Shown piece by piece: positions 4,153 to 23,775 of a stretch of DNA of 32,933 nt (its first letter is position 1; every line of letters starts with the position of its first letter). Under the pieces are notes generated by a model. It saw only the letters and a program-made list of their open reading frames with translations. It was not told the DNA's origin and searched no databases. The DNA is taken from NCBI GenBank assembly GCA_021298335.1, contig JAJTEZ010000018.1:1-32933 (forward strand). Reading direction: 5' to 3'. A program made the translations under genes and the position numbers. Source of the stretch: Saprospiraceae bacterium. Lineage in GTDB: Bacteria; Bacteroidota; Bacteroidia; Chitinophagales; Saprospiraceae.

Positions 4153-4824
4153 ATGGAACATAAGGTTCATGTATTAGGATTTTGCAAATTCAAAATCTGC
4201 ATGTTGTACGATATGCTGGTGGATACTTCTCATCCTCAGGTGCTTGAAGTCTATCTCAACATAGAACTTGATACCTCAATTGACTTTTACACCAAGGAGT
4301 TTCCGGTAATCATCCATTCACCTTTGAAATCACCCAATTTGAATGACAGTTTTGTTTTTGGCGTGAGCGGACCAAAGAATAAGCGAGCGCTATTTAGTTT
4401 CTTTTCTCAAAATGCGGGTATTAATAAAACGAACTACGCCAATGTTATTCATCCTTCCGCAGTGATTTTTCCATCTTCCCGAATTGATCACGGTGGTATT
4501 GTAGACTCACTTGTAAGTGTAAGTTATCAGTCTGATATTGGATTTGGTGTGGATATCAAACGAGGTGCTCAAATCGGACATCACAACCGGATTGGGGCCT
4601 TTTGTGATATTAATCCAGGCGCGATTCTTTGCGGTAACGTGACCCTTGGCGACCATTGCTACATTGGTGCAGGCAGTATCATCAAGGAAAGAGTAACCAT
4701 AGGTGAAAATACAATTATCGGTTTGGGGAGCGTCGTCACGAAAGACATTCCTGAAGGCGTAGTTGCCTACGGGAATCCTTGTAAAGTGGTCAAGGATAAT
4801 CCTTTTCTTGATCAATTACTCTAA
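4153..4824 (+). CDS. Left-handed beta-helix acyltransferase, PglD/NeuD-like
   Basis: Hexapeptide repeats (IGHHNRIGAFCDINPGAILCGNVTLGDHCYIGAGSIIKERVTIGENTIIGLGSVVTKDIPEGVVAYGNPCKVV). Confidence 0.85.
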   Translation: MEHKVHVLGFCKFKICMLYDMLVDTSHPQVLEVYLNIELDTSIDFYTKEFPVIIHSPLKSPNLNDSFVFGVSGPKNKRALFSFFSQNAGINKTNYANVIHPSAVIFPSSRIDHGGIVDSLVSVSYQSDIGFGVDIKRGAQIGHHNRIGAFCDINPGAILCGNVTLGDHCYIGAGSIIKERVTIGENTIIGLGSVVTKDIPEGVVAYGNPCKVVKDNPFLDQLL

Positions 4825-4845: not shown

Positions 4846-5682
4846 GTGAAAACTATCATCAATTTCTGCCCTACCGGCATGGTACCTACAAAGGACATGA
4901 ACATACATGTGCCGGTCTCCGTACAGGAAATCATAGAGCAAACACACGCTGCCTGGGAAATCGGCATCACCATTGCCCATTTGCATGCGCGTCTTGAAGA
5001 TGGGTCGCCCACCTATTTGTCCTCTGTTTACCGCGATATTTTTGAAGGCGTTCGAAAACACTGCCCCGGGCTGATCGTCTGTGGCAGCAGCTCGGGTCGC
5101 AACTGGCCTGAATTTGAAAAGCGTTCGGAAGTGATCGAGCTGTTTCCCGACATGTGTTCCCTGACTCCTTCCTCCCTCAACTTTATGACGCAGGCCAGTG
5201 TGAATCCGCCTGATATGGTGCAGCAACTCGCGATGAAAATGAAGGATTATGGCGTGGTCCCTGAACTGGAAATCTTTGATTTGGGCATGATCAATTATGC
5301 GAAATACCTTATTTCAAAAGGAATGGTGGAAGGCCCGTTTTACTGGAATCTTCTCTTTGGCAATATCGCTGGATTACAGGCCAATCTTCATAGCATTTCG
5401 GCCGCGATATGTGAAATTCCGGCAGACCACCAGGTGGTACTTGCAGGACTTGGGCAGGAACAGCTTCCCGTCACTTCGCTGGCCATAGCCCTGGGATATG
5501 GAGTAAGAATTGGGCTGGAAGATAATTTGTGGTGGGATCAAAAGAAACGAGTTCAGGCCGATAATCTTTCACTGCTCAAAAGAATCCATCAATTGCTTGA
5601 GATTCATGAAAAAGATTGTATGTCTGGTGAGGAATTGGGTAGCATGGGGTATTACAACAAAAAACGGCCTACAGTTTCTTAA
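4846..5682 (+). CDS. Beta-keto acid cleavage enzyme (BKACE/DUF849, Kce-like)
   Basis: NFCPTGMVPTKDMNIHVPVSVQEIIEQ, metal-site motif AHLHAR, SLTPSSLNF, VLAGLGQEQLP, GVRIGLEDNLWW. GTG start. Confidence 0.85.
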   Translation: MKTIINFCPTGMVPTKDMNIHVPVSVQEIIEQTHAAWEIGITIAHLHARLEDGSPTYLSSVYRDIFEGVRKHCPGLIVCGSSSGRNWPEFEKRSEVIELFPDMCSLTPSSLNFMTQASVNPPDMVQQLAMKMKDYGVVPELEIFDLGMINYAKYLISKGMVEGPFYWNLLFGNIAGLQANLHSISAAICEIPADHQVVLAGLGQEQLPVTSLAIALGYGVRIGLEDNLWWDQKKRVQADNLSLLKRIHQLLEIHEKDCMSGEELGSMGYYNKKRPTVS

Positions 5683-5684
5683 TC

Positions 5685-7529
5685 ATGCAGCGTGTTGATA
5701 CTGAAGGAAAAGCACTAGTCACATTGCCGAATTTATTTCTGCAATCTGTGCAACGCTATGGACCTAAAATTGCCATAGCAACAATTGATGGAGAAATTTC
5801 CTTTGAAGAGTTGAACCGAAATGCTGAAAAATGGGCATATCACCTGGCCCATTTGGCTCAAGCGAAGTGTCTGATTATACTCCAACCGGGACTCGAATAT
5901 TATACTGCCCTTGTTGCCTGTATGAAGGCAAATTGCCTGGCCATTCCCGTTGACGCAACACTCCCTCAAGCAAAAATCATGGAATTGATGACCGATGCCG
6001 GAGCAGGTATGTGCCTGTGCAGCGAATCTGTGGCATCAACCATCTCATTGCATATTCAGCAAAATTCAACCTACATTCTTACGCCGTCTGACTTAAACCA
6101 GGAAACAGAATCTAAGTGGATCAATGAAATACCAGCTGATGATTTTCTTCTTCACTGTCTATATACATCCGGATCTTCCGGCCGGCAAACAAGAGTGTAT
6201 TTCAGACAAAGTAGTATGGTACACGATGTCTTGACCTCCTGGGAAACGTACCGGATCAACAAAGAAAGCATCAACGCAAACCTGGGAGCGTATACATCAT
6301 CCTTACATATCAACGGATTGTGGAGATCACTCATTCAGGGGGGAACCTATATTTCAGGAAACGTAAAAAAAGAAGGATGGCCAGAGCTACAAAGCAGAAT
6401 TTACAATTACAATGCCACTGTTCTTCAGGGTCAGCCGGCACTTCTCAGGTCTTACCTGGCCCAGGCTGTACCCGAAAAGCACAATCACATCAGACACCTG
6501 GTACTCGGAGGTGAGGAGATCCGCCCAAGCCAACTGCAAGCCTTACTGTCTGCACTACCAGCCCTGGAATTACTTACGTACAATTACTCATGTACGGAAA
6601 CGATGCTGATCTGCAGCGTGACAAAACCGGCTGAGGTGTTTTTGGCATGGCAAAAAGTCCCAGCCGGTCTTCCGGGACCGGGTAAAACCATCCGGATTTA
6701 TTCCGAAAATGGCACACTCGCTACAGATGGTGAAGTGGGCGAGATCTTCGTGGAATCACCGTTTATAGCGGATACACTGGAAGGACCGGAGGCAGAACTG
6801 CGACTCAGGAAGAGCAAGGATGACCACTCCAGAACCTATGCTACAGGTGATCTGGGCCGCATAAATGAGGAAGGATTACTGGAGCATCTGGGTCGAAAAG
6901 ACCGCCAGATAAAAATCAACGGTGTTCGCATCGACCCTGTGTTGATTGAAAATGCATTGCTTTCGCTTCTGGATGCCAGCCAGGTACTGGTTATTCCCAT
7001 TCAGACGGAAGGTCATCAGCAAATTGCTGCGGCCATTTCGCCTTCCCTCAGTCTGGATACTCACTATCTGAACTCCAGCTTAGCAGAAAAACTTCCGTTG
7101 TCACACATTCCCGCCTTGTATATTTCAATGGATAACTTTCCCCTGACTGAAAGGGGAAAAACAGATGTGCATGCGATAAAAAATAGTTTACTGGAATCGC
7201 TCCGAAATCCTGACACGATTTCAGCTCAACCTTCAGAAAGGGGACCGACCTCTTTGCATCAAATTTGTTCCATCTGGTCTTCATTTCTTGAAAACAAGGC
7301 AATCAAAAGCGATATTCCACTGTTTCACCAGGGCGCAGATAGTTTGACAGCCATGCTTGGGCTACAAAAACTACAGAAAACATTTCACCTGGAGTTACCG
7401 CCTTCATTTATTGTGTCCTTCCCTACCCCCTTTGAACAGGCGAAAGAAATTGACAGGAAAATGCTAGAAAACATGCATAAACATGTCAAAGGTGCAAATG
7501 AGGATTTGGTAAAACGCCTGGGATTTTAA
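5685..7529 (+). CDS. AMP-dependent adenylation domain with C-terminal carrier (T) domain (NRPS-like A-T didomain)
   Basis: A3-like LYTSGSSGRQTRV, NYSCTETML, YATGDLGRI, LGRKDRQIKINGVRIDPVLIENAL, PLTERGKTD; C-terminal phosphopantetheine-site motif LFHQGADSLTAMLGLQKL. Confidence 0.87.
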   Translation: MQRVDTEGKALVTLPNLFLQSVQRYGPKIAIATIDGEISFEELNRNAEKWAYHLAHLAQAKCLIILQPGLEYYTALVACMKANCLAIPVDATLPQAKIMELMTDAGAGMCLCSESVASTISLHIQQNSTYILTPSDLNQETESKWINEIPADDFLLHCLYTSGSSGRQTRVYFRQSSMVHDVLTSWETYRINKESINANLGAYTSSLHINGLWRSLIQGGTYISGNVKKEGWPELQSRIYNYNATVLQGQPALLRSYLAQAVPEKHNHIRHLVLGGEEIRPSQLQALLSALPALELLTYNYSCTETMLICSVTKPAEVFLAWQKVPAGLPGPGKTIRIYSENGTLATDGEVGEIFVESPFIADTLEGPEAELRLRKSKDDHSRTYATGDLGRINEEGLLEHLGRKDRQIKINGVRIDPVLIENALLSLLDASQVLVIPIQTEGHQQIAAAISPSLSLDTHYLNSSLAEKLPLSHIPALYISMDNFPLTERGKTDVHAIKNSLLESLRNPDTISAQPSERGPTSLHQICSIWSSFLENKAIKSDIPLFHQGADSLTAMLGLQKLQKTFHLELPPSFIVSFPTPFEQAKEIDRKMLENMHKHVKGANEDLVKRLGF

Positions 7530-7575
7530 GCAAAAAAGCATAGTATAAGTAAAAATTATACATTCATAAATTTTT

Positions 7576-8580
7576 ATGATGAGTAAAGTTTTACAATTAA
7601 TGGCCGCAACACACCCAATCGTTCTGGATGTGACTATCAGGGATGGTGGGTACCTGAATGGCTGGAATTTTACATGGCAGGAAATGCAACTTGCCTTTGA
7701 AACCGCCTTCGATTGCGGGGCAGATATCGTGGAGATTGGGTATCTGGATGACAGGCAAGGCCTACCGGTTGCATCTTCATGGCAACCAGAAGAGCTGGTG
7801 AAACTCGACCCGATTCGTTCCAGGGGTCTGCTTGCTGCCATGTGTCGCCCAAGCGTAGAGACACCAATAGAGGTACTTGAAAAGCGCAAGGGATTGATTG
7901 ATCTTATTCGAATACCCGTAGATCTGCGTAATCCCTCACTCGCCAATCAGCTCGGTTTGAACTGCAACAAGGCCGGAATTCCTTTTTCATACAATTTAAC
8001 AAATATCAGTTGCTATTCAGCAGAGCAAATAAAAAATGCTTTTACTAAACTTTCAGACAATGCTGCAGCTGTATATATTGCCGACTCAAGAGGGGCCTTA
8101 TTGCCAGTATGGATCAATGAAATTTTTGACACCCTTGCCTCGGTCAGGGAATCAAGATTTGGCTACCACGCACACGATAATCTTTCTTTGGCAATAGAAA
8201 ACACTGCAGCTGCATTGTCCTGGGGTGTTGACTTTATTGACGGCTCTCTGTTTGGAATTGGCCTGGGAGGCCGGAATCTTGATTTACAGGATGCAATTCA
8301 CCTTGTGAAAGAAAGCCGTCCTGATATCTTACACAAGCCCATGCAGTCGTCATTGAAAGAAGAAAGTTTTGGCGTCCCAGGACGTGGAAATGAAATGCCT
8401 ATGTATCGCCTGACAGGTGAAAAAAACTTTAAAATGGAGTGGGCCATGATGATGTCAGAAAAATTAGGTCAGGAGGCTACGTGTGAAATTTTGCAAAATT
8501 TACCGGATGACCCCATGTTTTTGCCTCAGGAATTGCGGCCGCATGTCAAAGAAGATCAATGGAAACAGTTAGTATGGTAG
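7576..8580 (+). CDS. DRE-TIM/HMGL-like aldolase (4-hydroxy-2-oxovalerate aldolase-like)
   Basis: LDVTIRDGGYLNGWNFTW, VEIGYL, VYIADSRGALLP, FGYHAHDNLSLAIENT, DGSLFGIGLGGRNLDLQ. Confidence 0.85.
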   Translation: MMSKVLQLMAATHPIVLDVTIRDGGYLNGWNFTWQEMQLAFETAFDCGADIVEIGYLDDRQGLPVASSWQPEELVKLDPIRSRGLLAAMCRPSVETPIEVLEKRKGLIDLIRIPVDLRNPSLANQLGLNCNKAGIPFSYNLTNISCYSAEQIKNAFTKLSDNAAAVYIADSRGALLPVWINEIFDTLASVRESRFGYHAHDNLSLAIENTAAALSWGVDFIDGSLFGIGLGGRNLDLQDAIHLVKESRPDILHKPMQSSLKEESFGVPGRGNEMPMYRLTGEKNFKMEWAMMMSEKLGQEATCEILQNLPDDPMFLPQELRPHVKEDQWKQLVW

Positions 8581-8876
8581 TCAGGATGCGTATTTACAAT
8601 ACATCGGAAAGAAAAATCGATTCCGACAAAGTATTTTATGAGCTCGTAAAACCGGTCCATGAAAAATACGGTGCCAAATTTCTCGGTCGGTACATCGATG
8701 CAAAAGGAAGGTATGTTGTGCTGTGGGCATACCCATCAGAACATGCACTGAACGAAATCCAAAAGCTGGTCGCGGAAGACGAAGACACCATCAAACATGC
8801 AGAGATCAGAAAAAACTCAGGTCTGCATGGTGTGGATTTTGAAGAGTTTATTTTAGAATCAACAGAACCAAGTTAA
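8574..8876 (+). CDS. Small NIPSNAP-like (dimeric alpha/beta-barrel) protein
   Basis: MRIYNTSERKIDSDKVFYELVKPVHEKYGAKFLGRYIDAKGRYVVLWAYPSEHALNEIQKLV resembles NIPSNAP/ABM-like folds. The ATG at 8574 overlaps the upstream stop; the listed start at 8559 is possible. Confidence 0.5.
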   Translation: MVVRMRIYNTSERKIDSDKVFYELVKPVHEKYGAKFLGRYIDAKGRYVVLWAYPSEHALNEIQKLVAEDEDTIKHAEIRKNSGLHGVDFEEFILESTEPS

Positions 8877-8899: not shown

Positions 8900-10570
8900 A
8901 TGAATTTCATCAGGTTTTCTTCAACATTCATGAGATTGCTCACATCAGGCATATACCTGGTTCTGATTTTCATTTTTCCATTTTTCTTTATTTTAAAAGG
9001 CATCCATTTTACTGATGAACCATACCAAATCCTGTGTATGCTTCAGTTGATTGAGCCAGATGTATTAAGTTTCCTTCATCCAGTTGTTGGAAAGGTCTTG
9101 TCAGATATTTTTCCCGGCAGGGTTGTTGATTTCCGGATTCTGGCCTATCTCATGCAGTTGCTCATCTTTGCTGCACCAGTCGTATACCTACTACGAAAGA
9201 AACTGGATTCGCATACCTTACTTTTCTGGATTGCGTTTTCAGTTATACTGCATACTTCCAGAAGTTCGTATATGATTAGCCCATACACTCTGTCTACGTT
9301 GATTAAAGTTTTAATCTTACTGTTCGCCTACGCCTGGATGAAACATCAAGAAAGAGGATTATTACTGCTACTGGGCATCCTGTCGGCAGTTAATATGGCG
9401 TTCAGATTTCCGGAAATACTCACTATTGGGATTATTGGCATCTTTATCACTATGATTGGTCAAATGGATGGAAAAACTGCGCTGCAACGTCTATGGGATG
9501 TAAGCATTTACTTGATTTCTGCGATTCTGTGTTATTTGGTCATGTACATGTATGTTATGGATATCGATGTATTAAATACTTCCAACATTTTTTTTCATAT
9601 CACAGAAGGAATTCGGGAACAACAAACATTCAGCCAGTCACACTCAACTTTCAACTTACTCAAATCTTATGTTAAGGATAGCTTGGTTTTAGGCATTATT
9701 ATCGCATGTTTTAGTCTTTTTCTTTACATTATATTGCGAAATAAAAAAAATAAATTTGTATATTTTGCCATATACGTTATCGTCTTAGTTACTAGTATGA
9801 CCGCAAATATGACAACGTATGGAACAGGATTGTCATTGATGTTTAGTGCTTTATTTCTAATTGCCTCAGTCTTTCTATTATACAACAAAAGCCTGGAAAC
9901 CAAAGAAAATATCTGGGTAGTCTTACTCATTATAGTTGCTTTTATAACATCTGCCGGGTCAAGTACAGGATTTCTAAAGCTTTCATATTGCTTGTTGCCT
10001 TTTCTACCTGTAATTTTAGTTGAATTACATCAACACCTTTCTGCTTCAAACAGACGTATTGTAATGAACTTGGTTGTTTCGTTCATGGTTTGCTTGCCCG
10101 TTGCGAAAATAGGTTTTGGAAGAGCGTATGAAGACGGAGCATTTTTACAACTCAGAAGCCAGGTAAACCATGCCAAGCTTGAAGGCTTGTATACAACAAA
10201 AGCAAGAAAAAAAAGGATTGAACATGTAATCCAAGTAGTTGATTCGATAAAAAAAATAAGTCCTGAAAGAAAAATACTCTATTACGGCGGTGATTCCTGG
10301 TTGTATTATGTACTTTCTGAGACAGCATTGCCGTCCAGAGTTTCATTTAGGATGCCTGTGGATCAGGCTGATCACTGCCGCATAGTAACAGGATGGCTAA
10401 GGCAGGATAACTCACAGCCATATCTTGTACTCATCGGCGAAAGTATCAGGCGAAAAATGCCACTTCCCAAATCCATGCTCCGAGATTCGTTGATTGCACT
10501 TGACTACTCAGTCCTTAGAAAGGAAAATGGCTTTGCTGTATTTGAAAAAATAAAATCCGTCTCAAAATGA
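8900..10570 (+). CDS. Polytopic membrane protein, possibly GT-C type glycosyltransferase
   Basis: Many hydrophobic segments; acidic motif in the first loop (HFTDEPYQ) and a soluble C-terminal tail, as in ArnT/GT39-like proteins. Confidence 0.55.
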   Translation: MNFIRFSSTFMRLLTSGIYLVLIFIFPFFFILKGIHFTDEPYQILCMLQLIEPDVLSFLHPVVGKVLSDIFPGRVVDFRILAYLMQLLIFAAPVVYLLRKKLDSHTLLFWIAFSVILHTSRSSYMISPYTLSTLIKVLILLFAYAWMKHQERGLLLLLGILSAVNMAFRFPEILTIGIIGIFITMIGQMDGKTALQRLWDVSIYLISAILCYLVMYMYVMDIDVLNTSNIFFHITEGIREQQTFSQSHSTFNLLKSYVKDSLVLGIIIACFSLFLYIILRNKKNKFVYFAIYVIVLVTSMTANMTTYGTGLSLMFSALFLIASVFLLYNKSLETKENIWVVLLIIVAFITSAGSSTGFLKLSYCLLPFLPVILVELHQHLSASNRRIVMNLVVSFMVCLPVAKIGFGRAYEDGAFLQLRSQVNHAKLEGLYTTKARKKRIEHVIQVVDSIKKISPERKILYYGGDSWLYYVLSETALPSRVSFRMPVDQADHCRIVTGWLRQDNSQPYLVLIGESIRRKMPLPKSMLRDSLIALDYSVLRKENGFAVFEKIKSVSK

Positions 10571-11637
10571 TTCCGGTTACCCGTACATTTCTGCCTCCAC
10601 TGGAGGACTATATGAGACAAGTTGCCCGGGCATACGATAACGGCTGGCTCACAAACAGAGGAGAATTGGTAAAGGAGCTCGAGCAAACATTGTGCAACCA
10701 TCTTCACATCAGAGATGGTAAGGTCATTGCAATGACAAATGGCACGATTCCCCTCCAAATTGCTGTAAAAGTACTGGGAAGAGGCGGGGAAATCATTACC
10801 ACACCCTTTAGTTATGTGGCTACGACATCCTCGATTGTCTGGGAGGGTTGTACGCCTGTTTTTGTCGATATTCATCCGGACTATCTCACCATTGATGAAA
10901 CAAAAATAGAAGCAGCGATTACGAATAAAACCACCTGCATACTGGCTACCCATGTCTATGGAAATCCGTGCCATGTGGAAGAAATCGAACGTATTGCAAA
11001 ACAATATAAATTATCTGTTATTTATGACGCAGCCCACTGCTTTGGTGTAAAATACAAGGGCAAAAGTATCTTCGAATATGGCGATGTCAGTACCTGCAGT
11101 TTTCACGCCACAAAGGTTTTTCATACAGGGGAAGGAGGAGCCATATTTTGTCAGGATGAAGACCTGTGTAAAAAATTATTTTACAGCCACAATTTTGGCC
11201 ACGATGGTCCCCTGGCTTTTCATGATGTGGGAGTCAATGGAAAAATGAGCGAATTACAGGCTTCAATGGGACTGGCAGTACTTCCTTTTGTTGACAATAT
11301 TCTGGAATCCAGGAGGAAGTCAGCCACTCGTTATTTTGAACTGTTGCAACGCAAAAAAGTCGCCACACTCACGTTGCGAAACGGTGTTGACTGGAATTAC
11401 AGCTATTTCCCTGTCCTTTTTTCGGATGAAGATGCTCTTTTGAAAGCCGAAAAAGCAATGCAACTGGATGGTATTCTGCCCCGAAGGTATTTTTACCCTT
11501 CACTAAACCGTCTCCCCTACGTAAGTCAGGTGTCGTGTCCTGTCGCAGAAGACATTGCTGGCAGGGTGTTATGCCTGCCTCTTTATCATAGTCTTACAGA
11601 AGAAGAGCAGATTCAGGTGGTAAGCCACCTACCGTAA
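10567..11637 (+). CDS. DegT/DnrJ/EryC1/StrS family PLP-dependent sugar aminotransferase
   Basis: NGTIPLQIAVKVLG, VIYDAAHCFGVKYKGKS, SFHATKVFHTGEGGAIFC (PLP-lysine), NGKMSELQASMGLAVLP. ATGA overlap with the previous gene. Confidence 0.92.
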   Translation: MIPVTRTFLPPLEDYMRQVARAYDNGWLTNRGELVKELEQTLCNHLHIRDGKVIAMTNGTIPLQIAVKVLGRGGEIITTPFSYVATTSSIVWEGCTPVFVDIHPDYLTIDETKIEAAITNKTTCILATHVYGNPCHVEEIERIAKQYKLSVIYDAAHCFGVKYKGKSIFEYGDVSTCSFHATKVFHTGEGGAIFCQDEDLCKKLFYSHNFGHDGPLAFHDVGVNGKMSELQASMGLAVLPFVDNILESRRKSATRYFELLQRKKVATLTLRNGVDWNYSYFPVLFSDEDALLKAEKAMQLDGILPRRYFYPSLNRLPYVSQVSCPVAEDIAGRVLCLPLYHSLTEEEQIQVVSHLP

Positions 11638-11668: not shown

Positions 11669-12376
11669 GTGCAAAGTAACGATCGGGATAATACAACTAC
11701 CCAAGAGGTGGATGAAATCAAAAAAGAGCTCATTCTGTATGGCGTTGGGAGCACGGCAGAATTTCTGTGTTATTATTTCAAAAAAGCAGGCTGGAATATC
11801 ATTGCGTTCACCGTAGATAGATCATGGTGCAAACAAAGCCACTTGCTGGACATCCCTGTTTGGCCTTTTGAAGACATAGATACGTATAGAAACCCCTCAG
11901 ATTGTCAGATTTTTATAGCAGTGGGGCCGACCGGACTGAACCAGGTGCGAAGAAAGAAACTGGATGAGGCAGTGAGTAAAGGGTTTGTACCGGTCAGCTA
12001 TGTGAGTGCAGAGGCAATGCTTTGGGATGGTATGGACATATCTGAACACTGCAAAATAGGAGAAAGAACGATTTGTCAGCCCTTTTCTGTGATTGAAGAT
12101 AATGTGATGATTGGAAGTCAGTGCCTGATTGGCCACCATACACGTGTTGGCAGTGATTCTTTCCTGGCCTCAGGTGTGATGACTGGCGGAAATGTGCGCA
12201 TTGGCGAGGGTTCTGTCATTGGTACGGGAGCCATCATTAAAAATGACGTCGTCATCGGAAAAGAATGTATCATTGGTGCAGGAGTCACCCTGCTTCAGGA
12301 TGCTCCGGATGGGAGTGTCTTTATGAATGTGGGCTCACAAAAACTGATCATCAGCAGTAGACAGGTGCCATTATAA
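11669..12376 (+). CDS. PglD/NeuD-like sugar acyltransferase
   Basis: N-terminal ILYGVGSTAEFLCYYFKKAG and hexapeptide repeats (IGERTICQPFSVIEDNVMIGSQCLIGHHTRVGSDSFLASGVMTGGNVRIGEGSVIGTGAIIKNDVVIG). GTG start. Confidence 0.83.
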   Translation: MQSNDRDNTTTQEVDEIKKELILYGVGSTAEFLCYYFKKAGWNIIAFTVDRSWCKQSHLLDIPVWPFEDIDTYRNPSDCQIFIAVGPTGLNQVRRKKLDEAVSKGFVPVSYVSAEAMLWDGMDISEHCKIGERTICQPFSVIEDNVMIGSQCLIGHHTRVGSDSFLASGVMTGGNVRIGEGSVIGTGAIIKNDVVIGKECIIGAGVTLLQDAPDGSVFMNVGSQKLIISSRQVPL

Positions 12377-12382
12377 AAAAAT

Positions 12383-13732
12383 ATGAATCCAACAAGTCCG
12401 CCCATAATTCTGATCCTCTGTATGCACCGGTCCGGTAGTTCTCTTGCTGCACAGCTTGTAAATAATTCAGGAGTTTTTATGGGTGAGGCACTTGCGAAAG
12501 GAAACCATTATAACCCTGATGGTTATTTTGAATACACTCCTCTAGTGCGTTTTCATGAAAAAATGCTTGAACATCTGAGCATCACCTGGTATCTTCCCTA
12601 CAAAGAACTACCCTTACAATCGTTGCTGGAAAACTTTGGTGATGAGGCGAGAAATCTGATCGAAGAAATGGATCGGTCATTGATGCCCTGGTGCTGGAAG
12701 GACCCCAGGATGGCAATTTTTCTTCCATTTTGGGAAATATTATTCGAAGGGCGAAGTGTTTACAGCATTGTCACTTCGAGAAATCCTGCTGCCATTGCCG
12801 CATCACTTCAACAAAGAAGTCAGTTGCCTGAATTCCATAGCCTGGCACTTTGGGAGCACACATTCCTCCGTATTTTGACTTTTCTGTATGACAAGCAGCG
12901 ATCTTTTCTGTTATTGCCATACGAATCATTCATTGAAAATGCAGAATCTGCTTGTCGAGAACTCATAGATTTTCTCAGCCTCACGTTAAATCTAAACAAT
13001 AGACCAGATGATGTTCAGAAACTGGCAGAACTGGTGAATTCTTCCCTCAACAGACAAAAAAAGGCTGAGTTTCTGCCTCTTTCAATAAGCCAACAGAAAA
13101 TTCTGCAATGGACCGAAACAAAAGCCCCGGCTTTCACAAAAGAACAAATGACAGTTCAGTTGGCCTGGTTACATGAATACTTTGCTCTTTTTCAAAACAA
13201 TCCATCCGAAATAAAAAAAGATCTTGTTTTAAGGTTATACTGGAAGGTAGATGAAGCTGTCAAATTTTCCCCGGAGCAGTGCGTAACGTCGCAAATTCAG
13301 CAATCATCTATAGAATTCAAATTTGAACATATAATTTCAATAAAGCAACTTCGATTTCTTCCTGGAAACGTTCCTTGCAGCATAAAAATTAATGAAATTT
13401 TCGTGTTTCAGGAAAGGTATGAAATTCTTCCTTTTCAAGTGTCTGGGTCCAATGCAGCTTATCAGGAACACGGTAACTTTTATTTTACAGAACATTATAA
13501 CTGGCTTGATCTGGATCTGGAGAAATCCTACGATGGGGTCACAATGATTAAAATTAGTTTCACAAATTTCAGTACTGGTGTGGATTTTGCTAAAATACTG
13601 GTAGAGAAAAACCAGAAAGCTTTGAACAAACTAGAGTTCAAGTACGATCAATTGATTTGCAGATCTGGAGAAATCCATTGGCTTCTGAGGCAACTTATCA
13701 AGCGCATCAAAAAAAAGTTTTTGAAATTTTAA
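12383..13732 (+). CDS. Sulfotransferase family protein with C-terminal beta-sandwich-like extension
   Basis: PAPS-loop-like LILCMHRSGSSLAAQLV and CWKDPRMAIFLPFW; C-terminal IKQLRFLPGNVPCSIKINEIFVF resembles the beta-rich module found in some polysaccharide enzymes. Confidence 0.8.
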   Translation: MNPTSPPIILILCMHRSGSSLAAQLVNNSGVFMGEALAKGNHYNPDGYFEYTPLVRFHEKMLEHLSITWYLPYKELPLQSLLENFGDEARNLIEEMDRSLMPWCWKDPRMAIFLPFWEILFEGRSVYSIVTSRNPAAIAASLQQRSQLPEFHSLALWEHTFLRILTFLYDKQRSFLLLPYESFIENAESACRELIDFLSLTLNLNNRPDDVQKLAELVNSSLNRQKKAEFLPLSISQQKILQWTETKAPAFTKEQMTVQLAWLHEYFALFQNNPSEIKKDLVLRLYWKVDEAVKFSPEQCVTSQIQQSSIEFKFEHIISIKQLRFLPGNVPCSIKINEIFVFQERYEILPFQVSGSNAAYQEHGNFYFTEHYNWLDLDLEKSYDGVTMIKISFTNFSTGVDFAKILVEKNQKALNKLEFKYDQLICRSGEIHWLLRQLIKRIKKKFLKF

Positions 13733-13879: not shown

Positions 13880-14632
13880 GTGCATCAACCCGCGATAGAG
13901 ATACTTAACCTCACCAAGACGTTTAAACTATACAGCAATCAAAAAGATCAATTGCTGGATTATATCCTTCCGTTTACTGCTCCACGTTACCGCCCCTTCA
14001 CTGCCCTTGAACCATTGTCGCTGGACATCCCTCACGGAGAAGTATTTGGCATTATTGGCAAAAACGGCAGCGGCAAATCTACACTCTTTAAAATTCTTGC
14101 CTCAGTGATGAGTCCTACAAATGGTAGCTTCACGATACATGGTAAGCTGACCGCACTTCTCGAACTGAGCGCCGGATTCAATAAGGACTTAAACGGCATT
14201 GAAAATCTGTATTACCTTGGGGCAATCCAGGGAATCCGGCGGGAAGAAATGGAAGAAAAAATGGAAGACATCATTCGCTTTGCTGAACTCGGTGACTACA
14301 TGTATCAACCTATACGTATGTATTCATCCGGCATGCAATCCAGGCTTGCCTTTTCCATGGCGGTACATGTGGATCCTGAGATATTGATTTCCGATGAGGT
14401 ATTATCCGTCGGTGATGTGCGATTTCAGCAAAAATGCCATCGCAGAATCCGTGAGATGAAGGAAATGGGAAAAACTATCCTGCTCTGTACACACAATCTG
14501 GGCGCCGTGCGTGAATTTTGTGACAGGGCCCTTTGGTTGCATGAAGGGAAAATGATGGCCATCGATAATGCAAAAGATGTATGTGATGCCTATGAGCCGT
14601 TCATGTTATTAAAAACCAACCAGGCTGTGTAG
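13880..14632 (+). CDS. wzt: Polysaccharide ABC transporter ATP-binding protein (Wzt ATPase domain)
   Basis: Walker A GIIGKNGSGKSTLF, signature YSSGMQSRLAFSMA, Walker B PEILISDEVLSVGD, H-loop LCTHNL. GTG start. Confidence 0.93.
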   Translation: MHQPAIEILNLTKTFKLYSNQKDQLLDYILPFTAPRYRPFTALEPLSLDIPHGEVFGIIGKNGSGKSTLFKILASVMSPTNGSFTIHGKLTALLELSAGFNKDLNGIENLYYLGAIQGIRREEMEEKMEDIIRFAELGDYMYQPIRMYSSGMQSRLAFSMAVHVDPEILISDEVLSVGDVRFQQKCHRRIREMKEMGKTILLCTHNLGAVREFCDRALWLHEGKMMAIDNAKDVCDAYEPFMLLKTNQAV

Positions 14633-14649
14633 GCACGCAAAATCATTCT

Positions 14650-15147
14650 TTGCCTGAGCCCCTTTCATCCTATATCTGGACTAATTTCGAATCTGGAACT
14701 TTACTACCCGTTCATTTTCAAATGGCGAGCATGACGGAACAAAACCTGACAAAAACACAAGTTTCAGGTGGTGAAACGATTAGGCTTTCGTTTGGTGTTT
14801 TCACAGATACAACGAAGGAAAGTGTAGAGTTGAAAATCACCATCAATGGCAAGTTTGGCATACCGCTACTTATTCTGTCAAATCAGGAATTCAATGAAAA
14901 CATCGACTTGCATCACGGACATATAAACCTGATCCATGTAGATTTCACCATTCCCTTTCTCACAAATGGCACCTACACAATCAATGCTGAATTATTTCAG
15001 CAAGATGGAGACGACCAGATTTTACTGGCTAATGTATATGAAGCACTGGCTTTCCTGGTCAAAGAACCTGAACAGCGAAATAATCAGAAAGCACAACTGA
15101 GAGTGCCACACGCCTCGTTTCACACTGATTTTTGTTCTATTTCCTAA
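14650..15147 (+). CDS. Stand-alone Wzt C-terminal (O-antigen binding)-like beta-sandwich protein
   Basis: Lies directly after the ATPase; TQVSGGETIRLSFGVFTDTTKESVELKITINGKFGIPLL...VDFTIPFLTNGTYTINAELFQQDGDDQILLANVYEALAFLV fits the Wzt-C pattern. TTG start, uncertain. Confidence 0.6.
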   Translation: MPEPLSSYIWTNFESGTLLPVHFQMASMTEQNLTKTQVSGGETIRLSFGVFTDTTKESVELKITINGKFGIPLLILSNQEFNENIDLHHGHINLIHVDFTIPFLTNGTYTINAELFQQDGDDQILLANVYEALAFLVKEPEQRNNQKAQLRVPHASFHTDFCSIS

Positions 15148-15162
15148 CGTATTATTGAGACC

Positions 15163-15969
15163 ATGGCATCAGTTTTTATATTTATTCGCGAATTATTCCA
15201 GCAACGATATATCTTTTTCACACTTGTCAAACGGGACTTTCAAAACCGCTATCTTTCTTCGGCCATTGGATTACCCTGGGCATTTGTACAACCTGTTTTC
15301 TATTTGTTATTTATTGGGTTTGCATTGCATTTCGGCCTTCGGGGTGCAGGGGCCAAAGGAGGTGGCATTCAAATGCCGCATTTCACGATTGCCATGATTG
15401 CCTGGCTATATATCAGTCAAACGATGAATGCGTGCACCAGATCCCTGACAGATTATGCATACATCATAAAAAAAACGAGTTTTAATGTGAGTTTTATTCC
15501 ACTTGTAAAGATTTTTTCCGGCTTGATTATACATTTATTCATGATATTGATTGTATTATTCACGTTGATAATAATCTACAAAGTATCCCCTACGTTGCAC
15601 TGGTTTCAAATCATCTATTACCTGTTTTCTACTATCATTTTATTATCGGGTATCGCCTGGCTTGTGTCATCAGTCAACGTGATTTTTAAGGATATGGGGC
15701 ATGCTGTCCAGCTGGCTGCGTCCATGCTTTTTTGGGTGACACCCATAATATGGTCTTATGAAAAGCTTCCCGGAAACTATAAATATATAGCATTGCTGAA
15801 TCCTTTTTTTTACATCACAGAGGGGTATCGGTTTACCTTTCTGAAGCAAACTTGGTTTTTTGCTTACGCCGAAATGAATCTTTATTTCTGGTCTGTCACC
15901 AGTTTGATCTTACTTTTGGGTGTCGTAACATTCCGAAATTTACGAAAGGAGTTTGGAGATTATTTGTAA
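15163..15969 (+). CDS. wzm: ABC-2 type polysaccharide export permease (Wzm)
   Basis: VKRDFQNRYLSSAIGLPWAFVQPVFYLLFIGFALHF, SSVNVIFKDMGHAVQLAASMLFWVTPIIW, LLNPFFYITEGYRF. Confidence 0.92.
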   Translation: MASVFIFIRELFQQRYIFFTLVKRDFQNRYLSSAIGLPWAFVQPVFYLLFIGFALHFGLRGAGAKGGGIQMPHFTIAMIAWLYISQTMNACTRSLTDYAYIIKKTSFNVSFIPLVKIFSGLIIHLFMILIVLFTLIIIYKVSPTLHWFQIIYYLFSTIILLSGIAWLVSSVNVIFKDMGHAVQLAASMLFWVTPIIWSYEKLPGNYKYIALLNPFFYITEGYRFTFLKQTWFFAYAEMNLYFWSVTSLILLLGVVTFRNLRKEFGDYL

Positions 15970-16827: not shown

Positions 16828-16849
16828 TTTTTTGACATACAAGCATTCC

Positions 16850-17635
16850 ATGGATTTATTCTTATTCAGCAATCAGTTATCCTTATCACTTCTGGCGGAA
16901 CAGTCGGGAGTCGACCATATCATCATTGACTGGGAACGGGATGGAAAAAAAAATAGACAAAAAAGTACATCCTTTGAACTAAATCATGATACTCTTGATG
17001 ACCTGATTCAGGTCGCGGAACATACTGCCCTTTCAGTCACAGTCCGAATTAACCCCCTCGGTTCAAAATCAGAGGATGAATTAAACAAAGCTCTGGATCA
17101 CGGGGCTTCCGTCATTATGTTGCCTATGTCAAAAAGCGCTTTGGATGTGGAGCAATTTCTTCGCCTTGTGAACGGACGTGCCCAAACTCTGATTCAAATT
17201 GAAACAAAAGAATTGATTGAAGACCTGAAAGCGTTTTCGGAATTACCATGGGATTATACGCATGTTGGGTTGAATGACCTGATGATATCAAAACAATATT
17301 CCACCATCTGGGAAGCAGTTGTGGATGGAACTATAGAAAACATTTGCACAAATTTAGAGGGAAAAAAATATGGCTTTGGGGGAATGACCATCGTGACAGG
17401 CGGCCATCCCATTCCATTTGCACTACTTCTGCACGAAATGGTGCGGTTGCAATGTTCAATGGGTATACTCAGACGATCTTTCAAGCAGGATGTGGCTGAT
17501 AAAAATATGCAGCAACAGATACACACTATCAGAGATTTTATCAGCAAGAGCAAGCTCCGTAGTCTTCATTTGAAAAATGAAGATAGCTCAGAGTTACACC
17601 ACAAAATCCGGGAAGTCATCCAAACAACGCACTAA
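16850..17635 (+). CDS. HpcH/HpaI aldolase/citrate lyase (CitE-like) family protein
   Basis: VDHIIIDWERDGKKNRQ, VTVRINPLG, VIMLPMSKS, TLIQIETKELIEDL, HVGLNDLMISK. ATG at 16850 preferred; TTG at 16832 possible. Confidence 0.8.
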   Translation: MDLFLFSNQLSLSLLAEQSGVDHIIIDWERDGKKNRQKSTSFELNHDTLDDLIQVAEHTALSVTVRINPLGSKSEDELNKALDHGASVIMLPMSKSALDVEQFLRLVNGRAQTLIQIETKELIEDLKAFSELPWDYTHVGLNDLMISKQYSTIWEAVVDGTIENICTNLEGKKYGFGGMTIVTGGHPIPFALLLHEMVRLQCSMGILRRSFKQDVADKNMQQQIHTIRDFISKSKLRSLHLKNEDSSELHHKIREVIQTTH

Positions 17636-17742
17636 TAAATAGATGGTAAAAAGTCATTCACCCAAAACACGCAATAGTTCAGCTGCTTTATTGCTCTTAC
17701 CCATCAAAAAATGTCAGTAAAGCGACCAACCAGAAAAAACCA

Positions 17743-18708
17743 ATGCAATCCAGAGGTATAATAGTATTAATGCATTCAGAAAGAGTCGCCTCATCCAGGC
17801 ACGTAAAGGCTCTTTCTGAAATAGCACCGGGATTTACCGTCCATCAGGTGGCAGATGAAGAAGATGCCATTGAGTGTGCCCCGGAAGCGGTGTATATATT
17901 GGGACACAGATATCTGCGACAAGTCCTTCCGTATACAAAAAAACTTAACTGGGTACAGCTCAGTGGAGGTGGATTTGATCACATACCTATAGATAAACTG
18001 AAAGCATTAGGAGTCCTGACATCACGGTATACCGGAGCTTCCAGGGGAATCGCTTTTCATGCTGTGGCCCTTGCCATGGCAGTAAACAGAAAGCTGCCAG
18101 AGATTATAGCATCGCAACGCGATCATGAATTTGATACTGCCTTATATCAGGAAATGCTGCCGTTACCTCAAAAGATAATGATTGTCGGTCTTGGCTCGAT
18201 AGGCCTGGAAATCGCTAAACTAATGAGGCCAGGCTGTCGTTTAATTCGCGGGGTTAAGAAGTCAAGAGAGGTCATTCCCACAGAATTTGTGGATGAAATC
18301 TTTGTTTCGGATGACTGGAAAGAAAAATTACAGGATACAGATTTCCTTTTTGTTTGCCTGCCAAATAATGCGGACACTGAGGCCTTTGTCGACGAAGAAG
18401 CCCTAAAAAAACTCCCCGACCATGCAGTTGTAGTGAATGTGGGCAGGTATGAGACAATTGACAATGAGGTGATGTGTCAGCTTTTGAATACAGGAAAGTT
18501 GGGGGGGGCCGCCATTGATGTATTTCCACGCCCATTTGACGAGATATTGATGCAGCGATTGTATACTGTAAAAAACCTCTTGATTTCACCCTATGTAGCC
18601 GCAAGATATCAAGGTAAGGTGGATGAGTTTGAAACATTTTGCGAAAAACAACTGCAACGGATGATACAAGGGATTACCCCTGAAAATATTGTAGGTATTG
18701 ATCAATAG
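17743..18708 (+). CDS. D-isomer specific 2-hydroxyacid dehydrogenase family protein (non-canonical active site)
   Basis: Rossmann motif IMIVGLGSIGLEIAKLM, LFVCLPNNADTEAFV, VVVNVGRYETIDNEVM, GGAAIDVFPRPFDE, ISPYVAARYQG. Confidence 0.83.
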   Translation: MQSRGIIVLMHSERVASSRHVKALSEIAPGFTVHQVADEEDAIECAPEAVYILGHRYLRQVLPYTKKLNWVQLSGGGFDHIPIDKLKALGVLTSRYTGASRGIAFHAVALAMAVNRKLPEIIASQRDHEFDTALYQEMLPLPQKIMIVGLGSIGLEIAKLMRPGCRLIRGVKKSREVIPTEFVDEIFVSDDWKEKLQDTDFLFVCLPNNADTEAFVDEEALKKLPDHAVVVNVGRYETIDNEVMCQLLNTGKLGGAAIDVFPRPFDEILMQRLYTVKNLLISPYVAARYQGKVDEFETFCEKQLQRMIQGITPENIVGIDQ

Positions 18709-18724
18709 GTCAATGATATTAACT

Positions 18725-18746
18725 ATGCACATGGAAATAAGTGCAT
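18725..18746 (+). other. Small inverted repeat, weak terminator-like
   Basis: ATGCAC (18725-18730) / GTGCAT (18741-18746) followed by TTTTG, 17 nt after the stop of the 2-hydroxyacid dehydrogenase gene. Confidence 0.2.
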
Positions 18747-18870
18747 TTTGATCAAAGATTGCGTGATTCCGCACCTATAAAACAAATTCATTGTAAACTG
18801 GAAAATAATCCAACCCGGGATATTCTGTACCCTTTAACACTTGAGAATTATAAAAATTATTCTATAAAAA

Positions 18871-19794
18871 ATGCATAAAATCATAGATGTCAGATGCCGT
18901 TTTACGGGAGGGAGCTCTGCAGAATACTACAGAAATCAACTGGCTAAGTCAGGTCGCCTGCAAATGATTGAATCACTGAATGAGGGAACAGAAGAAGCAT
19001 TTTTTCAGGAAATCTCATCAGCTGGGATTGGTACAGCAGTTTCTGCCTCTGGATTTAACCCTGGTGCAAGACTTGGCAAGTATACATTTCCTGACAGAAC
19101 TACTTCCAATGAGGAATTAGCGGATGTCGCAAAGAGAAATCCTGCACAATTTATCGCCTGTGCGGGCCTTGATGTCAGCAATACGTTTCATAATTGCATG
19201 GACGAAATCGAAAGATGTTATTTTGAACTGGGTATTCATGTCTTTGGAATTGAGCCGGGCAGAGCCCCGGGATGTAACCCGGCAGACAAATCACTCTTTG
19301 ATATTTACCGCAAACTGGAATCGCTCGATTGTACCGTGATTATCCAAACATCCGGTTTGAAAGGTGGACCATTCTTGCATTACGCTCACCCCGATCATAT
19401 CGAGGTGGTTGCTCACCATTTTCCGAATTTAAGGATCATTTGCGCGCACGGCTGTTACCCCTATGTGAGAGAAGCCATCGTGATTGCCATGCGAAGGGAA
19501 AATATTTGGCTAAGTCCGGAGGGATATTTATGGCATCTTGGACATGAAGACTGGATGCGAGCCATCAACAAAAACTTCGAGCAATTTTCACATAAATTCC
19601 TGTTTGGATCTGCCTACCCGCTTACCCCCATCAAACCATTTGTGGAGAATTTTCTGAAATTGGAATGGGACAAAAGTGTCTTACCCAGAATTCTGTACCA
19701 AAATGCAATTCAAGCATTAAATATCGGCCAAAAAGAACCTTTTGCAACCCTAATGAAAGATAAAACATTTGAACTTACCCCTTTTTATAATTAA
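18871..19794 (+). CDS. Amidohydrolase_2-like TIM-barrel protein (degenerate metal site)
   Basis: N-terminal HKIIDVRCRFTG, NLRIICAHGCYPYVREAI, KFLFGSAYPLTP, RILYQNAIQAL match the amidohydrolase_2 layout with substituted metal ligands. Confidence 0.72.
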   Translation: MHKIIDVRCRFTGGSSAEYYRNQLAKSGRLQMIESLNEGTEEAFFQEISSAGIGTAVSASGFNPGARLGKYTFPDRTTSNEELADVAKRNPAQFIACAGLDVSNTFHNCMDEIERCYFELGIHVFGIEPGRAPGCNPADKSLFDIYRKLESLDCTVIIQTSGLKGGPFLHYAHPDHIEVVAHHFPNLRIICAHGCYPYVREAIVIAMRRENIWLSPEGYLWHLGHEDWMRAINKNFEQFSHKFLFGSAYPLTPIKPFVENFLKLEWDKSVLPRILYQNAIQALNIGQKEPFATLMKDKTFELTPFYN

Positions 19795-19806
19795 TCTATA
19801 CAACAA

Positions 19807-20895
19807 ATGACTACAATTCTTTTATTATCTGGAGGAAGCCTTGTGGGCCAAAATATTTTGGCAGCACTCTACGGCAGAAGGCAGAATGTAAAACTAATTG
19901 CAACCAATAGCAAATCCGACGAACCTTCACTTTTTCTGTATGATAAAGTATACTTGTGTCCAACCTTAACGACTCACCCCAGTGAATTTGAAGATGTTTT
20001 CTTAGGCATATTGAACAATGAGTCTCCGGATTTGATAGTCCCTTGCAGGGATGAGGATGTTTATTTTCTTGCAAAATTTGGCGAAAAGTTTCCCGAATAC
20101 AAATACAAGCTTTTGTGTGGCAACAAGATGGTGGCCGATGCCTTGGTTGACAAAGAAAAAAGTGCCAACCTTTGCGATAAAATGAGGATTCCTTTTGCCA
20201 AAACAATTCTGGCTGATTCACAAAGAAATGCTCTAAACACATTTATGGATGGATTCTCATTTCCAATTGTCGCGAAACCTGTCCGTGGTTTCGCATCACA
20301 AGGGGTATATTTAATTCTGAATTCAGACCAAATGGAATATTTTATTGGTAAAAAAGACTACATATTCCAACATTATGTAGGAAATTCCAGCCAAATTTCT
20401 GAATACATGGAATCTGTCAGACTTTTGGGCTTACCTTTATACCATAGTTTTGAACAAACAAAAGTATCTATTCAGGGAAACATTAGTCCTGACGGGTCCA
20501 TTCTTGGAACATTTATCACTTTGCACCAAATGATGAATGGAAAAAGTGACAAGGTGAGCATATCAAATCAGACAGATTGGCTTTCTCAGTCGAACGAGTG
20601 GACATCTGTGTTTTCAGAAAACGGATGGCGTGGACCGATTAACATCCAATGCCAGATAGATGAAAACAATCAACTTTGCGCCTATGAACTGAATGGAAGA
20701 TTTACAGGAGCTACGCATGCGAGGCTATTGCTTGGATTTGATGAATTAAAATTAACACTTGAAGCGTGGTGCGGCATGAAAATCCAGGTGCAAAACCTAA
20801 AAAACAGACCTGAAATTGTCAGAAAGACGATGCAAAACACATTCCTGGACATAGAACAATGCCACCTTTTAAGCGAAAGCGGGACTTGGCCTTGA
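19807..20895 (+). CDS. ATP-grasp domain protein (CarB-like ligase)
   Basis: TTILLLSGGSLVGQNIL, PDLIVPCRDEDVYFLA, ALVDKEKSANLCDKM, FPIVAKPVRGFASQGVYLI, INIQCQIDENNQLCAYELNGRFTG. Confidence 0.85.
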   Translation: MTTILLLSGGSLVGQNILAALYGRRQNVKLIATNSKSDEPSLFLYDKVYLCPTLTTHPSEFEDVFLGILNNESPDLIVPCRDEDVYFLAKFGEKFPEYKYKLLCGNKMVADALVDKEKSANLCDKMRIPFAKTILADSQRNALNTFMDGFSFPIVAKPVRGFASQGVYLILNSDQMEYFIGKKDYIFQHYVGNSSQISEYMESVRLLGLPLYHSFEQTKVSIQGNISPDGSILGTFITLHQMMNGKSDKVSISNQTDWLSQSNEWTSVFSENGWRGPINIQCQIDENNQLCAYELNGRFTGATHARLLLGFDELKLTLEAWCGMKIQVQNLKNRPEIVRKTMQNTFLDIEQCHLLSESGTWP

Positions 20896-22965: not shown

Positions 22966-23775
22966 ATGCTGAAAATTTTATTTTCATTCTTAAAAAAAAT
23001 TGAAAGAAAAGTTAATATCTGGAGATTCAATCTTTGGCATGAAAGAGTAAATATTGTCATGATTCACCTGGGAAGATGTGGCAGTACAGCACTGGCACAC
23101 CACCTTCAGCAACATCCAGAACTAAAATGGGCAGGTGAAATTATTGAACATGAAAATGAAAAACATGCTGCTCTGAATAAAATAAATCAGTTCGTCACTA
23201 ATAGTATCAGAAAATATAGTGGGATAGAAATCAAACCGTTTCATCTTAGAAGTTGCCGGATTCCGCCACAGGAGTTTTTGGATTTTCTAAAAAAGAAGCA
23301 GTTTAGCAAAATTATCTTCCTTACCAGAAAAAATCTGTTGAGAATTATCATCTCAGGCACTGTCAGTCGACAAACCAAAGTATGGCACATTCAGAACTCA
23401 AATAATCAAAAACTCCATCAAATTTATCTTGATCCTAATTCTATCATGGTTCGAGGTAATTTTTATAAATTATTGGATGTCTTGAGTATGTTGGAGAAAG
23501 ATATCTTGGATATGGAGGAATTACTGAAAAAGCAGAAAATACTTCGGTTGTATTACGAAGAGCATGTATCAATGTCGCCGGTTATCGGATTCAAAAAAAT
23601 ATGTGAGTATATCGGAGTCCCTTTTGTGGAAAATTCAATCTCTCTTGTCAAAACAAATCCATTTCCTCTGCAGGAAATCATCACAAATTTTTCAGAGATA
23701 AAAGAGCACCTTGATAATACCCGATTTGAGTGGATGTTGTACGATGAAACACATTCCAACAAGACGATTTCATAA
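22966..23775 (+). CDS. Sulfotransferase family protein
   Basis: VNIVMIHLGRCGSTALAHHLQQHPELKWAGEI (PAPS loop) and KIIFLTRKNLLRIIISG. Confidence 0.75.
   Translation: MLKILFSFLKKIERKVNIWRFNLWHERVNIVMIHLGRCGSTALAHHLQQHPELKWAGEIIEHENEKHAALNKINQFVTNSIRKYSGIEIKPFHLRSCRIPPQEFLDFLKKKQFSKIIFLTRKNLLRIIISGTVSRQTKVWHIQNSNNQKLHQIYLDPNSIMVRGNFYKLLDVLSMLEKDILDMEELLKKQKILRLYYEEHVSMSPVIGFKKICEYIGVPFVENSISLVKTNPFPLQEIITNFSEIKEHLDNTRFEWMLYDETHSNKTIS

Follow-up and report, generated by a model that had tools for sequence, protein, structure and literature searches.

The closest described counterparts of the locus considered here are polysaccharide gene sets that provide an amino sugar with an acyl group. In Flavobacterium psychrophilum, a PglD homologue of the wfpC-wfpG region is predicted to move a 3,5-dihydroxyhexanoyl group from a locus-encoded carrier to UDP-Qui2NAc4N (PMC6519341). 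In Pseudomonas syringae, vioA, vioB, acp, vioS and vioR make N-(3-hydroxybutanoyl)viosamine (PMC3927599), and in Vibrio cholerae O1 wbeL is needed for the tetronate-substituted perosamine O antigen (PMC3441752). The present locus lies on contig JAJTEZ010000018.1 of a Saprospiraceae bacterium (phylum Bacteroidota; assembly GCA_021298335.1, 2.97 Mb and 84% complete), of which the whole stretch analysed, 32,933 nucleotides, is here called the window. The original prediction, made from the letters of the DNA, had singled out four tightly packed genes at 4846-8876, encoding a BKACE (DUF849) enzyme, an adenylation-carrier (A-T) didomain, an HMGL-like aldolase and a small NIPSNAP-like protein, as one module that builds an acyl group for a glycan. 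We now propose that two separate acyl-donor modules in one polysaccharide operon feed two PglD/NeuD-type acyltransferases, which would decorate the product of a DegT aminotransferase; in our judgement this proposal has an even chance of being correct.

Genes and products of the block

The genes on which the argument turns are as follows.

4153-4824, + strand: NeuD/PglD-type left-handed β-helix acyltransferase (‘hex1’); Hexapep PF00132, 2.4e-12; NeuD_NnaD TIGR03570, 1.3e-39
4846-5682, + strand: BKACE/DUF849 enzyme; PF05853, E = 2.7e-71
5685-7529, + strand: free-standing A-T didomain; AMP-binding, 1.3e-34; PP-binding, 6.8e-8
7576-8580, + strand: DRE-TIM aldolase of the 4-hydroxy-2-oxovalerate-aldolase type; HMGL-like, 1e-16; 4-hydroxy-2-oxovalerate aldolase subfamily, 3.6e-20
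8574-8876, + strand: NIPSNAP-fold small protein; Foldseek matches to NIPSNAP structures and a homologue in genome G119
8900-10570, + strand: multi-spanning membrane protein, 556 residues; no Pfam match above threshold
10567-11637, + strand: DegT/DnrJ/EryC1-type aminotransferase; PF01041, 3.1e-87
11669-12376, + strand: PglD/NeuD-type acyltransferase; TIGR03570, 1.8e-42

The four predicted genes are real and correctly placed, as judged from their open reading frames (ORFs) and from Pfam matches to BKACE, AMP-binding/PP-binding and HMGL-like, and the motifs AHLHAR, GADSL, TIRDGG and YHAHDNL were all found in the translations. The boundaries of the block fared less well. The operon extends upstream of the BKACE gene to an acyltransferase (4153-4824) that had been left off the list and ends 22 bp before it; within the block the genes lie about 2 and then 46 bp apart, and the last two overlap by 7 nt. 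Downstream, the block does not lead directly into the DegT gene, as had been supposed, because the membrane protein gene at 8900-10570 intervenes.

The A-T protein has the core A motifs, the A10 lysine (Lys492) and the T-domain serine (Ser553) of a nonribosomal peptide synthetase (NRPS)-type A-T didomain. In NRPS A domains, Asp235 (GrsA numbering) binds the α-amino group of the substrate. This column holds Asp in all 19 NRPS A domains aligned and Ser in both A-T proteins, that of the window (Ser206) and that of G119 (see below), at the highest posterior confidence; an Asn suggested by a first pairwise alignment was dropped, as profile and multiple alignments give Ser. Replacement of Asp235 by Ser thus makes it likely, from the alignment, that the A domain loads a carboxylic acid without an α-amino group. 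Such an acid is what an aldolase of the neighbouring type could produce, and we infer a link from the aldolase to the A domain. The AlphaFold model of the A-T protein had a predicted local distance difference test score (pLDDT) of 32 and was not used.

For the neighbouring aldolase, the label ‘HMGL-like’ held at the level of the Pfam family, but identity as a 3-hydroxy-3-methylglutaryl-coenzyme A (HMG-CoA) lyase was rejected, since the protein is nearest to 4-hydroxy-2-oxovalerate aldolases; it matched PDB 3dxi, a ‘putative aldolase’ (9.6e-20), and DmpG-type aldolases. It shares with these the DRE-TIM barrel and the RD (residues 22-23) and HxH (198 and 200) motifs, and Asn234 is also present. 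In DmpG, the catalytic His20 follows RDG (RDGxH), whereas the window protein reads RDGGY, with Tyr26 where the catalytic histidine is usual. With Tyr in that place and a score of 67.6 bits against TIGR03217 (cut-off 286), it does not qualify as a 4-hydroxy-2-oxovalerate aldolase proper; it also differs from the DmpG type in falling under the NCBIfam cut-offs and in that the window encodes no acetaldehyde dehydrogenase to go with it.

The NIPSNAP-like gene had been listed from 8559, but it probably starts at 8574, so that it shares 7 nt with the end of the aldolase gene. The likeness of its product to NIPSNAP proteins stood as a fold, while the sequence profile is marginal: against PF07978 it scored 15.1 bits (E = 0.027; cut-off 22.3), below the family cut-off, and its G119 homologue scored 19.0 bits (E 0.0016) against the NIPSNAP profile. 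An AlphaFold model (pLDDT 83.8) was submitted to Foldseek, and NIPSNAP crystal structures made up 12 of its 13 top fold matches in the PDB; 1vqs, 1vqy and 5ixu were matched at E 3e-4 with a template modelling (TM) score of ~0.7, which identifies a NIPSNAP fold. Bacterial structures with this fold have mostly been deposited without an assigned function.

At 240.6 bits against PF05853 (cut-off 24.8), the BKACE gene product belongs to the DUF849 family. It shares with the BKACE family and Kce (PDB 2y7d) the fold family, the R-x-G-x-ED motif and the Zn ligands, namely His45 and His47 (HLHAR at 45) and the Glu of GLEDN (at 223). In an alignment to 2y7d (CcaKce), Val13 occupies the position of Glu14, where the barrel begins, and Phe that of the catalytic Tyr145; without the acidic Glu14, and with 193 bits against the 382-bit cut-off of NF052387, it does not qualify as a Kce, and its genomic partner is an acyltransferase, not lysine-degradation genes. 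At the Tyr145 column the window protein shares its Phe with nearly every DUF849 row that has a residue there (30+ loci aligned). Within this set the residue therefore cannot tell functions apart, nor is retro-Claisen cleavage certain, and we dropped the idea that Phe signals new chemistry. By active site, DUF849 has been sorted into groups that include ones for hydrophobic or uncharged substrates, as well as non-BKACE groups (PMC4922564).

Recurrence of the two gene sets in other genomes

Both modules recur outside the window, separately. A 5.8-kb contig of G119, a genome of the same phylum as the window but of a different family and class, encodes an A-T protein (630 residues), a PglD-type acyltransferase (227), an aldolase (335) and a NIPSNAP protein (98), head to tail within ~3.9 kb. 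Compared with their window counterparts, these proteins are 32% (A-T), 42% (PglD), 47-48% (aldolase) and 52% (NIPSNAP) identical, and the aldolase stop and NIPSNAP start overlap by an identical 7 nt, ATGGTRA, in both. On the G119 contig the PglD gene lies between those for the A-T protein and the aldolase. The window acyltransferase at 11669-12376 clusters with the G119 PglD protein, apart from the acyltransferases on the BKACE side (tree support 100/100), and on this phylogenetic evidence appears to belong with the A-T, aldolase and NIPSNAP genes (module 1). It scores 145.2 bits against TIGR03570, and the acyltransferase at 4153-4824 scores 135.9, both just under the cut-off of 160.8. No BKACE gene was found on this contig, whose end lies 92 bp past the NIPSNAP gene; the rest of that genome was not searched.

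A single four-gene module was rejected, because the G119 contig keeps the A-T, aldolase, NIPSNAP and PglD genes without BKACE; the exact set of four recurs in no genome examined. What survives of the acyl-building module is its tie to a PglD-type acyltransferase, seen in the neighbourhoods of other genomes, so that the interpretation is partly supported, right in kind and wrong in grouping.

Searches with the aldolase matched 2 of 278 Bacteroidota genomes (G119 and the distant G077), none of 269 genomes in the phylum of a Kiritimatiellae metagenome-assembled genome (MAG), none of 399 in the phylum of Undibacterium, and, in the window's own order, one distant homologue besides the window itself. 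With so few matches, module 1 is rare or patchy in these searches, resting on two genomes. Aldolase homologues in G077 and G410 (31-33% identity), in G203 (29%, fused) and on a Legionella plasmid (34.5%) have no A-T/PglD/NIPSNAP set and were not counted. Those of G077 and G410 (L051, 9480-11474; L052, 9069-11025) adjoin a D-2-hydroxyacid dehydrogenase gene, with a methyltransferase-like gene near, and lie outside sugar loci in these two Bacteroidota genomes; their neighbourhoods appear to represent another pathway. Searches of phages, of plasmids (with the A-T protein) and of viral contigs gave nothing useful.

The nearest homologues of the BKACE protein are from two Kiritimatiellae MAGs, a Bacteroidetes MAG, Undibacterium, an archaeal MAG and a Methylococcaceae MAG (a fragment), and trees place the window protein in a clade supported at 100/99. 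A hexapeptide acyltransferase gene adjoins the BKACE gene in the window, in one Kiritimatiellae MAG (L032, where it is divergent), in Undibacterium (L035), in the archaeal MAG (L036) and in G763 (L087), and lies one gene away in the second Kiritimatiellae MAG (L034); DegT genes are near in L034, L036 and L087. A NeuD/PglD-type acyltransferase is thus beside or one gene from BKACE in 6 of 11 clade members, from bacteria and an archaeon, against 0 of 24 controls, which were other BKACE loci from the sampled genomes with mostly ~1.4 kb of flank a side. Fisher's exact test by hand gave p ~3e-4 (3e-5 with five clade members left out), for a sample that is neither random nor fully independent, the nearest homologues having been picked by similarity to the window and two controls being halves of one broken gene. 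The acyltransferase at 4153-4824 is likely the partner of BKACE (module 2). No A-T or aldolase homologue was seen in the loci where this pairing occurs elsewhere.

Other surroundings of BKACE relatives were also recorded. On a Salmonella enterica plasmid (L089, 10486-16853) and a Streptomyces plasmid (L090, 731-6688), same-clade BKACE genes lie in riboflavin-type clusters with genes for GTP cyclohydrolase II (RibA), a methyltransferase, riboflavin synthase and γ-glutamyltransferase, and in L089 a RibD-like deaminase; these clusters possibly make a riboflavin-derived metabolite. Such members suggest that the role of the clade is biosynthetic in general and not confined to glycans. In two Bacteroidota genomes (L085, 5600-8698; L086, 5327-10352), a same-clade BKACE gene is near an HMGL-type gene (product 23-24% identical to the window aldolase), with no sugar genes seen. 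BKACE genes beside an aldolase-like gene in G044 and G048 were not counted, since the latter product is 23-24% identical to the window aldolase and the loci are non-sugar. The Methylococcaceae fragment (L037, 1836-2900) is near a PylC-like ATP-grasp gene whose product is 37% identical to that of window ORF 19807-20895, with a Rieske oxygenase-like ORF between.

A proposed route to acylated amino sugars and its alternatives

From these gene sets we infer substrates, reaction directions, loading, transfer and glycan as follows. In module 1 (A-T didomain, DRE-TIM aldolase, NIPSNAP protein and PglD-like acyltransferase), the aldolase would use a 2-oxo acid for C-C chemistry and so make, or trim, a short hydroxy- or oxo-acid. 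The A domain would adenylate this acid, lacking an α-amino group, and load it on its own T domain at Ser553, and the PglD-like enzyme would pass the acyl group to a sugar nucleotide, at the amino group that the DegT aminotransferase has probably introduced. The NIPSNAP protein would assist, perhaps in the manner of a small isomerase or cyclase. In module 2 (BKACE and the upstream NeuD/PglD-type acyltransferase), BKACE may turn a β-keto acid and acetyl-CoA into a short acyl-CoA that the acyltransferase uses directly. Two acyl donors and two acyltransferases could serve one amino sugar, or two amino positions, and the decorated sugar would be built into a Wzm/Wzt-exported, probably sulfated polysaccharide.

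Several observations weigh against this proposal. Module 1 has one other example beyond the window, on a short contig (5.8 kb) that carries no polysaccharide or sugar-nucleotide genes. The acyltransferases adjoining BKACE form no resolved clade of their own, a GNAT acetyltransferase replaces the hexapeptide protein in the Bacteroidetes MAG locus, and the two clade members in riboflavin-type clusters are without evident glycan-assembly loci. Within the window no sugar 4,6-dehydratase was found, and the DegT gene is set apart from the aldolase block by the membrane protein gene. Moreover, BsfD of flavophos biosynthesis, a DUF849 enzyme described in a 2026 preprint that also has Phe at the Tyr145 position, acetylates its substrate instead of cleaving it (PMC12871164), so that cleavage by the window enzyme cannot be assumed.

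The tight packing on one strand is what a single pathway would show, in which BKACE, aldolase, A-T protein and NIPSNAP protein act in turn on one acyl chain that one acyltransferase then moves to the sugar, and BKACE could feed such a chain to the A-T protein or the aldolase. However, the G119 contig has module 1 but no BKACE gene, BKACE pairs with acyltransferases where no A-T or aldolase homologue was seen, and the window carries two different acyltransferases; we consider a single pathway unlikely. Natural-product clusters often contain free A-T didomains. It is nonetheless quite unlikely, with polysaccharide assembly and export genes all around and PglD-type acyltransferases accompanying both modules, that the block makes a small NRPS-like or nucleoside-like secondary metabolite and lies in this locus by chance or as cargo, as might be argued from the BKACE relatives in plasmid-borne ribA/methyltransferase/riboflavin-synthase clusters of Salmonella and Streptomyces and from the part that a DUF849 enzyme takes in flavophos biosynthesis (PMC12871164).

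A role for the aldolase in building the carbon skeleton of an unusual branched or higher-carbon sugar, with the A-T and NIPSNAP proteins serving another step, seems to us improbable. In its favour, 4-hydroxy-2-oxovalerate-type aldolases join pyruvate-like donors to aldehydes, the locus encodes another aldolase (HpcH/HpaI), and a 511-residue aldolase-containing protein is encoded in a G203 sugar locus; against this, the G119 aldolase gene sits with those for the A-T, PglD and NIPSNAP proteins, on a short contig without sugar-nucleotide genes. That BKACE and the aldolase are transferred catabolic enzymes without a glycan role is very improbable: the first BKACE reaction described is a step of lysine fermentation and several of those added later are catabolic, but the pairings are conserved across phyla and with acyltransferases, and the operon is interleaved with glycan genes.

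The surrounding locus and its known relatives

The window is a locus for an ABC-exported, probably sulfated surface polysaccharide. On the + strand, an HMG-CoA synthase-like gene and an ATP-grasp gene precede the upstream acyltransferase and the block; after the membrane protein, DegT and second acyltransferase genes come those for a sulfotransferase-like protein, Wzt, Wzt_C and Wzm, and glycosyltransferases. The HpcH-type aldolase, 2-hydroxyacid dehydrogenase, amidohydrolase and PylC-like ATP-grasp genes follow, along with more sulfotransferase-like and glycosyltransferase genes. The following genes bear on the nature of the product.

939-2405, + strand: HMG-CoA synthase-like enzyme; PF01154, 2.1e-23; TIGR01835, 7.1e-81, under its cut-off
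13880-14632, + strand: Wzt ATPase; ABC_tran, 2.9e-21
14650-15147, + strand: separate Wzt C-terminal domain; Wzt_C, 3.5e-7
15163-15969, + strand: Wzm permease; ABC2_membrane, 4.8e-18
16832-17635, + strand: HpcH/HpaI-type aldolase; PF03328, 6.1e-10
17743-18708, + strand: D-2-hydroxyacid dehydrogenase; 2-Hacid_dh_C, 3.7e-28

The ABC-type export genes thus span 13880-15969, with Wzt split into two ORFs (13880-15147). Three sulfotransferase-like proteins (12383-13732, 22966-23775 and 25365-26078, two of them scoring under the Pfam cut-off) suggest that the polysaccharide is sulfated. The HMG-CoA synthase-like protein has all of its catalytic Glu, Cys and His motifs (GTESG, ACIGA and MHLPY), and a branched acyl group might be its product. 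A second carbon-skeleton set at 16832-20895 consists of the HpcH/HpaI-type aldolase, the D-2-hydroxyacid dehydrogenase, an amidohydrolase and the PylC-like ATP-grasp protein (19807-20895). The HMG-CoA synthase-like gene and those for the HpcH/HpaI aldolase and the dehydrogenase are possibly further acyl-building genes.

Literature searches on DUF849 with O-antigen, HOA aldolase with O-antigen gene cluster, and NRPS-type adenylation with O-antigen found no paper, and this combination of enzymes for making such acyl groups does not seem to have been described before. We suggest, while thinking it somewhat more apt to be wrong than right, that the A-T protein, 4-hydroxy-2-oxovalerate-type aldolase, NIPSNAP protein and PglD-type enzyme form an undescribed route in which aldol chemistry of the pyruvate type provides sugar N-acylation with a non-amino acyl group bound to a carrier, and that a bacterial and archaeal BKACE clade supplies acyl-CoA to NeuD/PglD-type sugar acyltransferases. 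If so, unusual N-acyl sugars could be predicted from sequence by looking for BKACE or A-T/aldolase genes beside PglD-type genes, a biosynthetic role would be assigned to part of DUF849, a functionally mixed family, and chemists would have a compact four-gene pathway, NIPSNAP protein included. Acyl groups of surface glycans shape antigenicity and phage recognition.

Like the wfp and vio loci, the window brings together a local carrier, chain-building enzymes, an aminotransferase and a PglD-type transferase. The F. psychrophilum region is of the same phylum and likewise a polysaccharide locus that itself encodes an acyl carrier, enzymes for the carbon chain and a PglD homologue; its chain, however, is predicted to come from two 3-ketoacyl-acyl carrier protein (ACP) synthases and a reductase acting on a free ACP (PMC6519341), whereas the window has an A-T didomain, a pyruvate-type aldolase, a NIPSNAP protein and BKACE, and no ketoacyl synthase or ketoreductase was found in it. 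The vio island of P. syringae shares an aminotransferase, an acyltransferase and local acyl-carrier chemistry for an N-hydroxyacyl amino sugar, but uses 3-ketoacyl-ACP synthase (KAS) III/reductase chemistry to make 3-hydroxybutanoyl, without an A domain, aldolase, BKACE or NIPSNAP protein (PMC3927599). In V. cholerae O1, WbeL has a predicted ATP-binding domain and is required to acylate perosamine with a dihydroxy acid, the route to which is predicted; the excerpt of that report reports no A-T fusion, BKACE or NIPSNAP protein (PMC3441752). By this comparison, sugar acylation from local donors is already established or predicted, and it appears to be the acyl-building chemistry that differs in the present locus.

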